From assembly GCF_002939305.1 (NCBI RefSeq), contig NZ_MVDI01000005.1:186001-250000 (forward strand): DNA of 64,000 nt. The letters run 5' to 3'. Below, piece after piece: positions 5,906 to 58,711 of this stretch. Source of the DNA: Chroococcidiopsis sp. TS-821 (GTDB taxonomy: Bacteria > Cyanobacteriota > Cyanobacteriia > Cyanobacteriales > Chroococcidiopsidaceae). The notes beneath the pieces were generated by a model. It had not been told where the DNA came from. It saw only the letters and a list, made by a program, of their open reading frames with translations, and ran no database searches. The stretch's first letter is position 1. Each line of letters starts with the position of its first letter. Made by a program: the position numbers and the translations under genes.

Positions 5906-6112
5906 TTAAACAATCTCAGTACGATCGAGCAAACAGGGAGTATTACCAAGGGCAATGGTTGGTGATGGGTTGCTTAGTTTAACAGCAGCAGTAGACATTG
6001 GCTTTATCAACAACAGGGATTGAGCCAAGAAATGAACGCCATGTTGAGACAAGGTATGCAGCGTGGCAGTCACACAACATGGACAAATAAATGATTCTGG
6101 AGAAGGCAGCAT
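5906..6112 (-). CDS. Small cysteine-containing hypothetical protein (68 aa)
   Basis: The ATG at 6112 is preceded at ideal distance by GAGG (6119-6122 on the complementary strand), the strongest reason to call this a gene. The product starts MLPSPESFICPCCVTATLH; the ICPCC cluster could bind metal or form disulphides, and the middle (FLAQSLLLIK) is weakly hydrophobic. It ends 16 bp before the exported M20 amidohydrolase and would share its transcript. No family recognised; it may be only a leader peptide. Confidence 0.4.
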   Translation of the reverse strand: MLPSPESFICPCCVTATLHTLSQHGVHFLAQSLLLIKPMSTAAVKLSNPSPTIALGNTPCLLDRTEIV

Positions 6113-6124
6113 AATGTGCCTCAA

Positions 6125-6473
6125 AAATTATAAGATTTCACAGAAATAATATAGTTCAAATGGAAATATTCACAATTTAATATATTTTTTCTTAATAAAA
6201 ATGCATCTATTTCTGATCTACTATTCGTTGTTATAAGATCGCGTTGCAATTTCATTGGCTTTACAATATGGTCTTTTAATAGTGTTAATAGCTTTTATGC
6301 AAAATCTTAACCGTAAAGAGTTTAAGAGACTATTGATTAAATTTTTATCTTCAGAGTTAAGTACTTTAAATAAACTTAGATTCTGCAACTAAGTTGAGCA
6401 TATTTTGAATATGTTTTGTTATGTAGAGTTAAACGCATTGATATAAAAACTTAACAAGAGAAAAATCGAGCTT
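6125..6473. other. AT-rich divergent intergenic region
   Basis: 349 bp separating the M20 operon (leftward) and the outer-membrane protein gene (rightward). Strongly A+T-rich; both promoters presumably lie here, but I see no clear operator or RNA structure. Confidence 0.5.
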
Positions 6474-7667
6474 ATGTTTAAAAGAAGAATAAAAAATAGT
6501 AGAAGTAGCCAATGCAGTCAAATAGATCTATTCTTTAGAGGCTATTTTCGAAAGCTGTGTTTGTTGTCTACCAGCAGTGCTTTATCGATCGCGCTTTCAG
6601 TGTCACCTACCTATGCAGAAAGCCAATTATCTATTTCTGACTCGACTGCTGCGCTCAACACCGTATCCGATCTAGAACAACATAGTCATTCTGCAAAAGC
6701 TCTAGAATTAGAAGCTGCCAGCTTTTTGCCTGAACCGGCAATTGAGTCTCGCATAGCAACAGAAGCAGCCTTCCCAATTTATGCAATTACCCAAGCAGAT
6801 ACTTCTACACCAGAGCTTTCTCAATTCACAGTAAGCGATCGCTGGCAATTTTCCGTCGAACCTTATATTTTTGTTCCCTTGCGAGTTCAAGCTGATGCCA
6901 CGGTTGCTGGACGGACTGCCTCGATTGATTTGGGATTGGGAAACATTTTAGATTTTGATCGTGCGTTTAATGCTGGAATTCGGTTACAAGCTCAAAAAAA
7001 TCGATTGGGGCTTATTCTTGACGGTTTCTATATTTCTGCACAGAATAGCGGAAATTTAGGAGTGACGTTTCCTCCAAACAGTTTGCCAGGTATCGGCGCA
7101 GATATTCCTATCCCAGTTCGGACAAGTGCCGACGCCAGCTTATCAATCCGCCAAGGGTTAATTGATTTGGCAGCATCCTACCGCATTGTCGATACAACGC
7201 TAGGTGATTCAGCAGCAGCGCCAAAATCCTTTCCTCGTCTAGTTTTTGCTCCGAGCCTGGGACTCCGAATTAATATTTTGAGTCAAAAGCTTGAGGTAGA
7301 TGACGTTCGCATCAACAATATTCCTGTCGGCAATCTTCCACTGCCAATTTTGCTTCCAGTGAACCAAGACTTTCGCCTAAATAGAACGACGGTTGAGCCA
7401 CTGATTGGCGCACAAATTGGATTAGACCTATCTGAACGTTGGACAGTCGATCTTCGAGGCGATGTGTCTGGGTTTAATCTCAATGCCGATACAAACTTGA
7501 CCTGGAATCTGCTAGTCGGCGCCCAGTATCAGTTATCTCCAAGCACATCAGTGCAACTTAGCTATCGCTTTAACGGTTTTGATTTTGAGGATGGATTGGG
7601 TCTCACGCGAGCCAAATTGAATTTGCGTCAGAATGGGCTGTTACTCGGTGCAACATTCCACTTCTAA
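6474..7667 (+). CDS. Outer-membrane beta-barrel protein, hypothetical
   Basis: 397 residues with a basic N-terminus, a hydrophobic export segment (LCLLSTSSALSIALSVSPTYA, residues about 29-49) and a mature part made of alternating polar/hydrophobic strands. It begins its barrel near WQFSVEPYIFVPLRVQADA and ends in LLLGATFHF, with the C-terminal phenylalanine expected of BAM-assembled outer-membrane proteins. Weak resemblance to OmpW/Opa-like 8- to 10-strand barrels; no ligand site can be assigned. Start ATG 6474 is the only one upstream of the signal. Flanked by long AT-rich spacers, so probably its own transcript. Confidence 0.7.
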   Translation: MFKRRIKNSRSSQCSQIDLFFRGYFRKLCLLSTSSALSIALSVSPTYAESQLSISDSTAALNTVSDLEQHSHSAKALELEAASFLPEPAIESRIATEAAFPIYAITQADTSTPELSQFTVSDRWQFSVEPYIFVPLRVQADATVAGRTASIDLGLGNILDFDRAFNAGIRLQAQKNRLGLILDGFYISAQNSGNLGVTFPPNSLPGIGADIPIPVRTSADASLSIRQGLIDLAASYRIVDTTLGDSAAAPKSFPRLVFAPSLGLRINILSQKLEVDDVRINNIPVGNLPLPILLPVNQDFRLNRTTVEPLIGAQIGLDLSERWTVDLRGDVSGFNLNADTNLTWNLLVGAQYQLSPSTSVQLSYRFNGFDFEDGLGLTRAKLNLRQNGLLLGATFHF

Positions 7668-54484: not shown

Positions 54485-54763
54485 AAGACTGTCCTCTATA
54501 TCCCTGTAATTTTTAATTTATCGCTAAGGAATCGGTAATCTTTAATGAGAAAAGAAAATTAACAGTACGGGGATCAAAGAGATATCAGAGGTTAGAAAAA
54601 ACCAATTAATGCGATTTAGGGGGAAATTTAACTGCGACAAATCAGCCTTCTGGATTAGGGGATTCAGGGGGACTTCAAATTCAGAAACTTTCGAGAGTAG
54701 AGAGCTAAGCCAGCCCTTAGGGATTTTCCTCATTCTAAGAACTGGGGTGCGTTGGGGGACAGT

Positions 54764-55088
54764 TTAAACAACTATAAATCCGTTTTCAGATAAATTCAGC
54801 TTACCTGCTTCGACAAGTTGCATTACCGCGATCGAGGAGTGACTTGACGCTGATTTAGATCGGCAATACCATAACCACGCAGATATACAGCGCGATCGCC
54901 TTCAACAATTCCTAACGCTAAGCCTGGGTCTGCAATGGCTGCATTTCCGATTGCCCATATTGATCGAGCGCTTCTGAGGTTTCGGTTTGTGAAGATGAAG
55001 CGGGTTGACTAGCAGCACTTACTGCCGTCAGGCACCTTACCCAAAGCGTAAGACAGATAATACTTAACTATTGTTCAGGTTTTGTCAT
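54764..55088 (-). pseudogene. Serine hydrolase / class C beta-lactamase-like pseudogene
   Basis: On the minus strand the frame starts with ATG ACA AAA CCT (55088), meets TAG, then resumes as IICLTLWVRCLTAVSAASQP (signal-peptide-like) and SSSQTETSEALDQY; after a shift it reads AIADPGLALGIVEGDRAVYL, RGYGIADLNQRQVTP; and after a deletion VMQLVEAGKLNLSENGFIVV, stop. These are the N-terminal strands of the beta-lactamase/esterase family, with the active-site SxxK lost in the deletion. The 5' end lies inside the direct repeat at 55050-55245. Confidence 0.6.
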
Positions 55089-55245
55089 TCAGCTTTACTA
55101 AAGCAATATAACGACAATGACTCTACCTGTGTCATTGAAGTGGCTCCTCTGTCTTAAGGTAAAATCTCGCTTACCTCAAGAAAGACCTTAAGACTTGTTT
55201 CATTGAATCTTAAATACTGGGGTATAAGCTTCAAAAACTGCTTAT
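55050..55245. repeat. Left copy of the diverged direct repeat flanking the sbt island
   Basis: Matches 58330-58542 over its whole length with roughly four bases in five identical by eye, including AGACAGATAA, TACTTAACTATTGTT, the TTCAGCTT...CTAAAGCAA block and GCTTCAAAAACTGCTTA. The copy contains the 5' end of the serine-hydrolase pseudogene. Confidence 0.75.
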
Positions 55246-55287
55246 ACCAACTATCTGGGAAGTTGCACTTAATATGAAGATGTACTC

Positions 55288-55521
55288 CTAACCACCGAGA
55301 GAGCTAACAACGTCAACTGTGATGCTTTTCAGCACTTTGTCTGGTTCGCGTCGCGACTCATGGAGCGTCTTACATGAGTCCCAAGCTAAGGCTTGCTTGA
55401 GGTGTTGCCAAAGCTCAATTGGATTAAGTTCAGAACTGTGAACCACCTGAAAAATGGGTATGACATTAGCCGGAAATAGCACAGATGCAGATTTGTGGAA
55501 GCTGCCATTATCTATCTGCAC
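55288..55521 (-). pseudogene. C-terminal fragment of an IS630/Tc1-like transposase
   Basis: Reads MQIDNGSFHKSASVLFPANV followed by HSSELNPIELWQHLKQALAW: the DNG...H-K pattern holds the second Asp and SxELNPIE the Glu of the DDE triad as in IS630 transposases. Only about 78 residues remain, with the N-terminal two-thirds missing or scrambled upstream (55521-55760). Indicates past insertion next to sbtA. Confidence 0.75.
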
Positions 55522-55789
55522 AAGGTTAAGTGGGTCTAGAAACGTTTAAAAGGTTCTCGCTCATCCTGGCATTTTACGCCCCAGGCGCAGGGAATTCACT
55601 CGCAGAGATTGAACTAATCTGCCCCATAGAGCAAAATTTTCGCGTGAAAGCATATTTATTCTTTGGTGAGAAATCGTCGTTTTCAATCGTTGGTTCATCA
55701 AGCTTGTCTGGAAGATGCAGACTTTGACATAGCCGCCACGTTGGTCGCTAGTCAAGGGAACACTGGCAGAGACCGCGACCTGTCTGGAA

Positions 55790-56947
55790 TTAATTACCCA
55801 TCAGCGCCTGGGCGAGCCCAATGTATAGCGGTATTCCCAAGGCGATCGCAACTGGCGTGCCAACGGCTGTGGAAGCACCTACGTAGGCTGAGGGATTTGC
55901 TGACGGGATACCGGCTCGTAAAGTAGGCGGACCTGAGATGTCTGAACTGGAGCAGGCAATGACGGCTAGGATCGCGACGCCACCAAGGCTGAATCCCGTG
56001 GCAAAGTGGGCAATCATACCGAAACCAAAGGCTATGAGCCCATGTAGCAGCGGCGCCACCACAGCATATACAGCGTACCAGTGGGCGACCTTGCGCAACT
56101 CGCTAAGCCTTGCCGTGGCCTCCATACCCATTACCAGCATCAGTATCGAAAGCAGTCCGCGGAAGAGGGGTTCGTAGAAGCTTTCAAAGACACTTTCCGG
56201 TCTGGTTAACAAGCCCAAAGCGAGACCAAGGAGCAGTGCCGACAGCGCAGAACCCTGGAGGCTTTCCTTCACAATAGGCCATATCTTGACCTGCTTACTT
56301 GTGATGCCGCGCGGCTTGCTGGGATACTCACATACGATACCGCGTGGCTCACTAGGATACTTACCTACGGTACCGCGCGGCTCACTGGGATACTCGCCTG
56401 CGATAACGGGCTGCATGCTGAGATATTCCTGCTTGCTGAGATACTCTTCTTTGATAGCGCGCCGCTTACTAAGATAAACGCTGGCCAAGACGATCGCAGT
56501 TACAAGTGCAGGGATGTCCATGAAGGGATAGAGTGCGGCGGCCCAAGCCTCGTATTCGATGCCTTGCTCTTGCAGTAGAGATAGGGCGGCGGCGAGGGTA
56601 GAGCCACTCACGGCACCGAACAAGCCCGCAGTCGCGATGGCATCCACGGTTTTGACGTTCGGTAGCTTAGCCAACGTGTAGCGCCCGATAAACACGATAA
56701 GAACCCCCATGACCATGGCAAACACCGCAGGCAACAGCATCTCCGCCAGATTAGCATTGCGGATCGCAATGCCACCTTGCAGGCCGACTTTTACAAGCAG
56801 CATGAAGACGACAAACTGATAGATCGCATCTGGAACTTGCAGTCGGCTATTAACGGCGGCAACGACCATACCACCAATCAGAAAGCCGAGTGTCGGGGAC
56901 TGTAACTGCGCCAGGAAGCGCATCAAGAAATCGGACAAGAAATCCAC
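55790..56947 (-). CDS. sbtA: Sodium-dependent bicarbonate transporter SbtA
   Basis: A ten-helix inner-membrane transporter with the two halves typical of SbtA: VNSRLQVPDAIYQFVVFMLLVKVG (about 33-56) and MGMEATARLSEL, ending ASTAVGTPVAIALGIPLYIGLAQ. It imports bicarbonate with Na+ for carbon concentration. Start GTG 56947 has a perfect AAGGAGGT ribosome site. The cytoplasmic loop (about residues 165-216) contains a repeat EYPSEPRG-x-V-G three times with two degenerate copies. Likely controlled by SbtB, here divergent at 57961. Confidence 0.93.
   Translation of the reverse strand: MDFLSDFLMRFLAQLQSPTLGFLIGGMVVAAVNSRLQVPDAIYQFVVFMLLVKVGLQGGIAIRNANLAEMLLPAVFAMVMGVLIVFIGRYTLAKLPNVKTVDAIATAGLFGAVSGSTLAAALSLLQEQGIEYEAWAAALYPFMDIPALVTAIVLASVYLSKRRAIKEEYLSKQEYLSMQPVIAGEYPSEPRGTVGKYPSEPRGIVCEYPSKPRGITSKQVKIWPIVKESLQGSALSALLLGLALGLLTRPESVFESFYEPLFRGLLSILMLVMGMEATARLSELRKVAHWYAVYAVVAPLLHGLIAFGFGMIAHFATGFSLGGVAILAVIACSSSDISGPPTLRAGIPSANPSAYVGASTAVGTPVAIALGIPLYIGLAQALMGN
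56303..56434. repeat. 33-bp minisatellite inside sbtA
   Basis: Units 56303-56335, 56336-56368 and 56369-56401 are 33 bases each and differ at only a few positions; 56402-56434 is a degenerate fourth, with a more decayed stretch up to about 56470. They encode the 11-residue repeat (G/C)(E/K)YPS(E/K)PRG(T/I)(V/T). Confidence 0.85.
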
Positions 56948-58275
<1,328 letters not shown>

Positions 58276-58329
58276 CTCAAAACTCCTTAGTGGTGCAGAA
58301 AACTCTGTCGTTTGCGATCAATGGTCTCT

Positions 58330-58542
58330 AAGACAGATAAAACTTAACTATTGTTTGGGTTTTGTTATTCAGCTTCACTAAAGCAACAAAAGACAAATAC
58401 CTCACCTATAGTATTGAAGTGACTCCTCAGTCTTAGAGTAGAATCTTGCCCACCTCATAAAGAACCTTAAGGCTTGTTTCACCAATAACCTTAAGGTCGT
58501 TTCATCTTAAATACTGAAGAATAAGCTTCAAAAACTGCTTAG
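58330..58542. repeat. Right copy of the direct repeat flanking the sbt island
   Basis: Homologous to 55050-55245 in the same orientation. At the position of the serine-hydrolase ATG it reads ATA, and the following codons match only to about 58330, so here the gene is lost. Confidence 0.75.
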
Positions 58543-58711
58543 CTGTATGACAATTTTTTCACAACTTATGAGGGTTGGAAACTAAATATAGCAATCGATG
58601 GGAAGGTAAGACATTCTAAAAGCTCAAAAACCTTCTCCTGGTTAGCTTTTAGCCCTGACCTCTGCTATAGCAGTAGTTTTGTGCTTAACTTCGATCTTTG
58701 ACCTTTGAGTA

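Follow-up and report, generated by a model that had tools for sequence, protein, structure and literature searches.

In-frame tandem repeats in the cytoplasmic loop between TM5 and TM6 of the cyanobacterial bicarbonate transporter SbtA

The closest described system is the SbtA of Synechocystis PCC 6803 (Slr1512; PDB 7CYE, 7CYF, 7EGK, 7EGL, and 8ZOR), an elevator transporter with a moving core formed by TM3-5 and TM8-10 and a fixed gate formed by TM1-2 and TM6-7, in which the connector between TM5 and TM6 is missing from the structure (PMC8352866, describing one structure). A variable size of this 5/6 loop has already been reported (Price 2011 and Du 2014), the loop being 35-40 residues shorter in transitional strains according to the excerpted text of PMC4275256. 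The same excerpts term the role of the loop undetermined in 2014 and list SbtA with other bicarbonate transporters envisaged for crop chloroplasts, and the available passages of later literature name no function for this loop. The SbtA analyzed here is encoded in a 64-kb stretch of the genome of Chroococcidiopsis sp. TS-821 (the whole of this stretch is referred to as the window). It belongs to the same family as the Synechocystis protein and aligns with it over the full length, both having a long connector at the same TM5-TM6 position. The difference lies within this connector, since the Synechocystis loop contains one AGDYGDQTDYPRTRQEYLSQQ segment where the window SbtA has three 11-residue units and no RQEY tail.

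The sbtA gene and its 33-bp array

The annotated features of the locus are, in window coordinates:

55790..56947, minus strand: sbtA, Na+-dependent bicarbonate transporter of 385 aa with a GTG start (Pfam Sbt_1, E 1e-93; Slr1512/SbtA in PDB, E 1.7e-159)
56291..56473, minus strand: cytoplasmic TM5-TM6 connector of 61 aa, residues 159-219 (delimited by anchors in an alignment of 171 SbtA; gap in the SbtA structure; low pLDDT)
56411..56446, minus strand: 18-bp pair EYLSKQ/EYLSMQ, residues 168-179 (in-frame reading; 6-aa periods in other loops)
56366..56398, minus strand: 33-bp unit 1, GEYPSEPRGTV, residues 184-194 (TRF; in-frame reading; 29/33 bases shared with unit 1 of the SbtA locus L045)
56333..56365, minus strand: 33-bp unit 2, GKYPSEPRGIV, residues 195-205 (28/33 bases shared with unit 1; 21/33 with L045 unit 2)
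56300..56332, minus strand: 33-bp unit 3, CEYPSKPRGIT, residues 206-216 (25 and 24/33 bases shared with units 1 and 2; 27/33 with L045 unit 3)
57961..58275, plus strand: sbtB, encoding the PII-like partner of 104 aa, in divergent orientation to sbtA (Pfam P-II; SbtB structures, E ~1e-40)

The Sbt_1 match (PF05982) spans residues 18-380, so that the whole protein is Sbt_1 (TC 2.A.83), and the only PDB matches to its predicted fold at E <0.001 were the five SbtA entries (Foldseek). Residues F110, G111, A112, S114, Y140, A331, S333, S335, and S338 are invariant among 31 SbtA sequences; the roles of SbtA residues in the Na+/HCO3- site are those described in PMC8352866, the Synechocystis numbers being shifted by 11 after the loop. 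The AlphaFold2 model of the protein has a modest mean pLDDT of 58 and served only to show how confidence falls in the loop compared to the rest, residues 171-230 showing the lowest values of the model (25-39), with all other ten-residue blocks but one at 50 or above.

Running TRF on the 64-kb window returned a repeat at 56303-56405 with a period of 33, 3.1 copies, 80% matches, and a score of 136, the highest among the 12 rows obtained for the window. The array is made of head-to-tail DNA copies with a period that is a multiple of three, and is thus a coding minisatellite. The original prediction, made from the sequence alone, had described three near-identical 33-bp units accompanied by degenerate ones. 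Three units of 33 bp and 11 residues are indeed found (56300-56398), but they are similar rather than near-identical, sharing 28, 25, and 24 of 33 bases in pairwise comparisons (73-85%), and the degenerate units could not be confirmed, as positions 56399-56434 contain no clear 33-bp unit and overlap the EYLSKQ/EYLSMQ pair. This pair, located directly before the 33-bp units, is a second type of repeat which is common in SbtA loops. Misassembly of the array is unlikely, since its ~100 bp are below the size of ordinary reads.

The composition of SbtA loops is biased (S, Q, K, A, E, G, and R) and the window units are merely 73-85% alike, which could speak for a chance or low-complexity artefact with no true duplication, a reading to which we assign a negligible probability. 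Each loop was scored by the best ungapped match of its DNA with itself at lags of 9-75, with 200 composition-keeping codon shuffles as the null. The window loop scored 50 in frame, at lag 33, a value reached by 0 of the 200 shuffles, and there was no signal at its off-frame lags (best score 7, p 0.53); together with the TRF period, these scores bear out the predicted in-frame coding repeat in the loop that joins the SbtA halves. Where the window units share a residue, the codon is identical in 14 of 23 pairs, whereas codon usage, taken from 29 long reading frames, predicts 7.7 (p 0.008), and this excess implies that the units arose as copies at the DNA level. Chance or composition is ruled out as the source of the array by the shuffles and the same-codon test taken together. 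Considering the whole loop at its own period, codon identity at same-residue pairs is 0.50 in the window versus 0.36 expected, compared to 0.68-1.00 (0.33-0.54 expected) for the other 27 of the 28 top-scoring loops; having the lowest codon agreement of them all, the window array has therefore decayed and is not freshly homogenized.

Tandem repeats of such size exist as dispersed families in cyanobacterial genomes, a point in favor of a mobile or dispersed repeat having been inserted into sbtA, although we give this origin practically no credence either. No second copy of the 33-bp array was found in the 5.23-Mb genome (72 contigs), the match to itself having an E of 2.7e-48 and the next three an E >1, and a search with a 21-bp array in five genomes matched nothing but sbtA, once per genome. 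With no further copies of the units outside sbtA in these six genomes (33-bp array n=1, 21-bp array n=5), a dispersed-repeat origin is ruled out in them at the sensitivity of the search.

The sbtA-sbtB pair is carried by an insert of ~4.06 kb (window 54632-58688) flanked by proA and a desaturase gene. Two other genomes of this genus have 78 bases between the corresponding flanks (window up to 54631 and 58689 onwards), with proA and the desaturase gene as neighbors, and their sbtA-sbtB is found elsewhere. Two direct repeats (55049-55244 and 58329-58541; 75% identical overall, with two pieces at 83% and 92%) bracket sbtA-sbtB, and no copies beyond these two were found in the genome at E 0.001. 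On the minus strand, the insert also contains a degraded piece similar to the end of a DDE_3 transposase, presumably of the IS630 type (55288-55545; Pfam E 0.023, below the curated cut-off), and a weak match to the Beta-lactamase family that looks like a gene remnant (54823-55008; Pfam E 0.0065, also below the curated cut-off). Identity to the genus is 96% for proA and 94% for the desaturase, and the SbtA core is 84.5% identical to that of G001 and 91.1% to that of G052, which belongs to another family. This arrangement suggests that sbtA-sbtB is a cassette that was acquired or has moved. By itself, the protein tree is no proof that sbtA was transferred into the family from outside: forcing six chosen rows into one clade was rejected (p 2.2e-5), with a set that omitted interleaved rows, and forcing all nine rows into one clade was not (p 0.21), so the tree settles nothing in this respect.

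Loop length and repeats across SbtA proteins

Sequences for comparison came from 60 relatives, from 17 genomes picked among the 179 (out of 388 of the order) that gave a match at E 1e-40, from the best 80 of 244 confirmed loci, and from 60 more stretches matched in the 388 genomes. The fetched loci contained 234 reading frames of 50% identity or more; 172 were distinct, and exclusion of a partial one (L065b) left 171. Only part of the matches in the 388 genomes was taken and, for this reason, the sample is uneven and weighted to the neighborhood of the window.

Among these 171 full-length distinct SbtA proteins, the TM5-TM6 loop goes from 11 to 97 aa (median 52, 5th-95th percentile 37-78), whereas the flanking halves are nearly constant (145-152 aa for the N-half and 164-175 aa for the C-half). 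Among pairs with a core identity of at least 93%, loop length differs in 165 out of 199. The comparison of loop lengths in other SbtA proteins, which had been proposed as a check together with the original prediction, thus agrees with the fast-evolving loop suggested there. In-frame repetition above all 200 codon shuffles was detected in 114 of the 171 loops, and at off-frame lags in none of them; a lag score of at least 35 was reached by 28 loops, and by no N-half or C-half of the same 171 proteins. The best period of these 28 arrays is 11 residues in 14 cases (e.g., L110, L066, L003, L068, L220, L045, and the window), seven in eight (STAGASF and kin, as in L028, L027, L026, L030, L031, and Chlorogloeopsis fritschii L129), six in four (e.g., L126 and L008), and 24 and 17 in one case each. 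On a FastTree tree calculated without the loop, no fewer than 18 changes of state are required to explain the 28 arrays, and no fewer than 11 for the 16 strongest, in counts that pool gains, losses, and transfer.

Very close relatives can differ in copy number. L028 and L030 (97.8% identical) are 14 residues apart, which corresponds to two 7-residue units, and L018 and L123 (99.1%) are six residues apart, corresponding to one EYLSKQ. These differences are seen between species and hold for the loop family as a whole; for the 33-bp array itself, a close array-bearing relative was not found among the 171 SbtA. Judging from such comparisons between species, copy-number change may be continuing. 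Some motifs recur in most loops (YP in 151 of 171, SK[QE] in 142, and [RK][QK]EY in 114, the last pattern catching also the hexad KQEY), and the recurring composition and motifs suggest some constraint rather than pure neutrality. One genome carries two sbtA genes ~3 kb apart on the same contig (G230:C100:1919-3061 and 6007-7149; L042 and L179). A distant SbtA paralogue in the genome of the window (G000:C2:245568-246479) matches in two pieces, residues 16-160 and 220-376, skipping the loop nearly exactly, and the SbtA fold may not need it.

Regarding the three units of the window, the nearest SbtA by core identity is the already mentioned one of G052, with a loop of 11 residues (LSKQRGTADKR). 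In the 171-row tree the window sits with two Calothrix-type sequences (L037 and L038, support 0.80), the loops of which have one YPSEP and then EY[PS]TTRQEYLSGQ. A fresh expansion from one to three units in the window was initially favored from the single YPSEP of these two loops, and dropped on the positional matches to L045. L045 and L039 are further off in the tree and have 61-residue loops with the same length and the same 11-residue register as the window, against the repeat expansion that had been proposed for this genome; L183, another near neighbor, contains degenerate segments in this register. Compared by position, the window and L045 share 29/33 bases in unit 1 and 27/33 in unit 3, versus 25/33 between units 1 and 3 of the window, and unit 2 of the window shares 28/33 with its own unit 1 and 21/33 with unit 2 of L045. 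Similar agreement with window unit 1 is shown by units of L110 and L063 (28 and 29 of 33). With 33 bases per unit, these values are no more than suggestive, and what they suggest is an older 11-residue register. Units 1 and 3 would be inherited, as each of them matches L045 by position better than they match each other, and unit 2 would be a local copy of unit 1.

A probable flexible tether, SbtB, and phosphorylation

The best explanation, which we consider probable, is a recurrent and lineage-labile coding minisatellite in a disordered TM5-TM6 tether that tolerates slippage, the 33-bp array being a single instance of it. The connector would be an intrinsically disordered cytoplasmic tether going from TM5 in the core to TM6 in the gate, and would have to flex. 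Short polar segments (EYLSKQ, xGYPSxQxITA, or STAGASF) would be duplicated or lost by replication slippage, which repetitive polar codons would invite, or by unequal recombination, and the only survivors would be changes in multiples of three. Since the tether would have no fixed structure, any length above a small minimum would be tolerated and length would be nearly neutral. With a disordered tether subject to slippage, it would be understandable that the arrays stay within the loop, that they come in multiples of three and in several unit types, and that no clear effect on SbtB is seen. Loop size was unrelated to the Na+ need or the uptake kinetics of six SbtA homologs, as stated in the excerpts of PMC4275256.

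The original prediction had gone further, proposing that the copy number of the loop repeats tunes the inhibition by SbtB, something that we regard as very improbable. A point in its favor is that loop and SbtB are both on the cytoplasmic face (PMC8352866), but none of the five SbtA structures, of which four are SbtB complexes, seems to have the loop modelled, their chains being listed by Foldseek with 326-335 residues of a 374-residue sequence. SbtA1 and SbtB co-occur in the identical 31 of 60 genomes whatever the loop, 12 more genomes appearing in the SbtA search only with matches weaker than E 1e-20. Even beside the 11-residue loop of G052, an SbtB with a canonical T-loop is retained, adjoining sbtA and being the closest to that of the window (92%). 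Across 116 SbtA-SbtB pairs, the mean column conservation of SbtB is 0.88 in the T-loop versus 0.84 in the whole protein. The SbtB of the window ends in HAHKF, without the C-terminal CGPxGC R-loop (redox loop), a motif present in 42 and absent in 74 of these 116 pairs, and there is no clear difference in SbtA loop length between the two groups (medians 52 vs. 52.5). Within the 74 pairs without R-loop, differences in loop length correlate weakly with those of the T-loop (Mantel rho 0.12, p 0.034) and do not correlate with core divergence (rho 0.04). Regarding published experiments, the excerpts of PMC4275256 report uptake inhibited by SbtB in four of five SbtA-SbtB pairs. Three of the five came from strains with the loop 35-40 residues shorter; one of them, 6307, was the sole uninhibited pair, a point in favor of tuning, but the other two were inhibited, and SbtA with a c-Myc tag inserted in the loop still co-purified with SbtB. 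The claim that the loop alters SbtB inhibition is thus unsupported by chain lengths, by the canonical SbtB of G052, and by the pairs and tag of that work as excerpted, the weak correlation with the T-loop standing against its complete dismissal.

A different role, unlikely in our opinion and still with more in its favor than tuning by SbtB, would be the multiplication of short linear motifs by the repeats (Ser/Thr/Tyr phospho-acceptors or docking sites for a kinase, SbtC, or another partner), so that copy number would be the valency of an SbtB-independent regulatory tail. According to excerpts of PMC4379935, Thr189 in the loop of Synechocystis SbtA is phosphorylated (peptide QPVAAGDYGDQpTDYPR), less so under nitrogen starvation in one experiment out of two, and a passage of a 2026 review describes the reactivation of SbtA in the light as believed to occur through phosphorylation (PMC13249358). 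However, when this position was located by its text pattern, Ser or Thr was found in only one of 30 loops of the AGDY...[DE]YP type, which discards a conserved phosphosite there. Ser and Thr account for 18% of the residues in the loops, and longer loops have more of them (rho 0.74), although this would be expected from composition alone. The YPS, SKQ, and TAG motifs are common to units of different loops, and the net charge of the loop (mean +2.3, sd 2.1) is nearly independent of its length (rho 0.12), both consistent with a regulatory tail; against it, the loop is lost in the closest relative (G052) and the kinetics of the six homologs mentioned above did not follow loop size, at least as excerpted. 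Somewhat more doubtful still is the connector as a fast-evolving regulatory array, in which slippage would alter the number of phospho-acceptor or docking motifs and give each lineage a quickly adjustable, SbtB-independent control of bicarbonate uptake, like the contingency repeats in surface proteins.

SbtA arrays among known loops and repeats

Variation in the size of the SbtA loop was known, and the present results add tandem in-frame repeats across cyanobacterial SbtA loops and a natural near-deletion. We found no report of tandem repeats in SbtA in the open-licence literature, a body that misses most subscription papers. The variable loop of Price 2011 and Du 2014 is described, in the available excerpts, as a possible partial deletion at horizontal transfer and not in terms of tandem repeats, in contrast to the in-frame repetition of several unit types seen here in many loops.

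With natural loops spanning 11 to 97 residues, and a near-loopless transporter that keeps SbtB among them, the choice between a passive tether and a control segment becomes directly testable. For design work, this natural range suggests that the loop could be shortened or tagged at little risk to the control by SbtB.

The usual setting of bacterial in-frame coding minisatellites (VNTRs) is surface proteins. The SbtA arrays share with them units in multiples of three, copies made at the DNA level, and differences in loop length among closely related members, which in one pair amount to whole units. Unlike the usual VNTRs, they are located in the cytoplasmic tether of an inner-membrane transporter, and their variation is known here between species.
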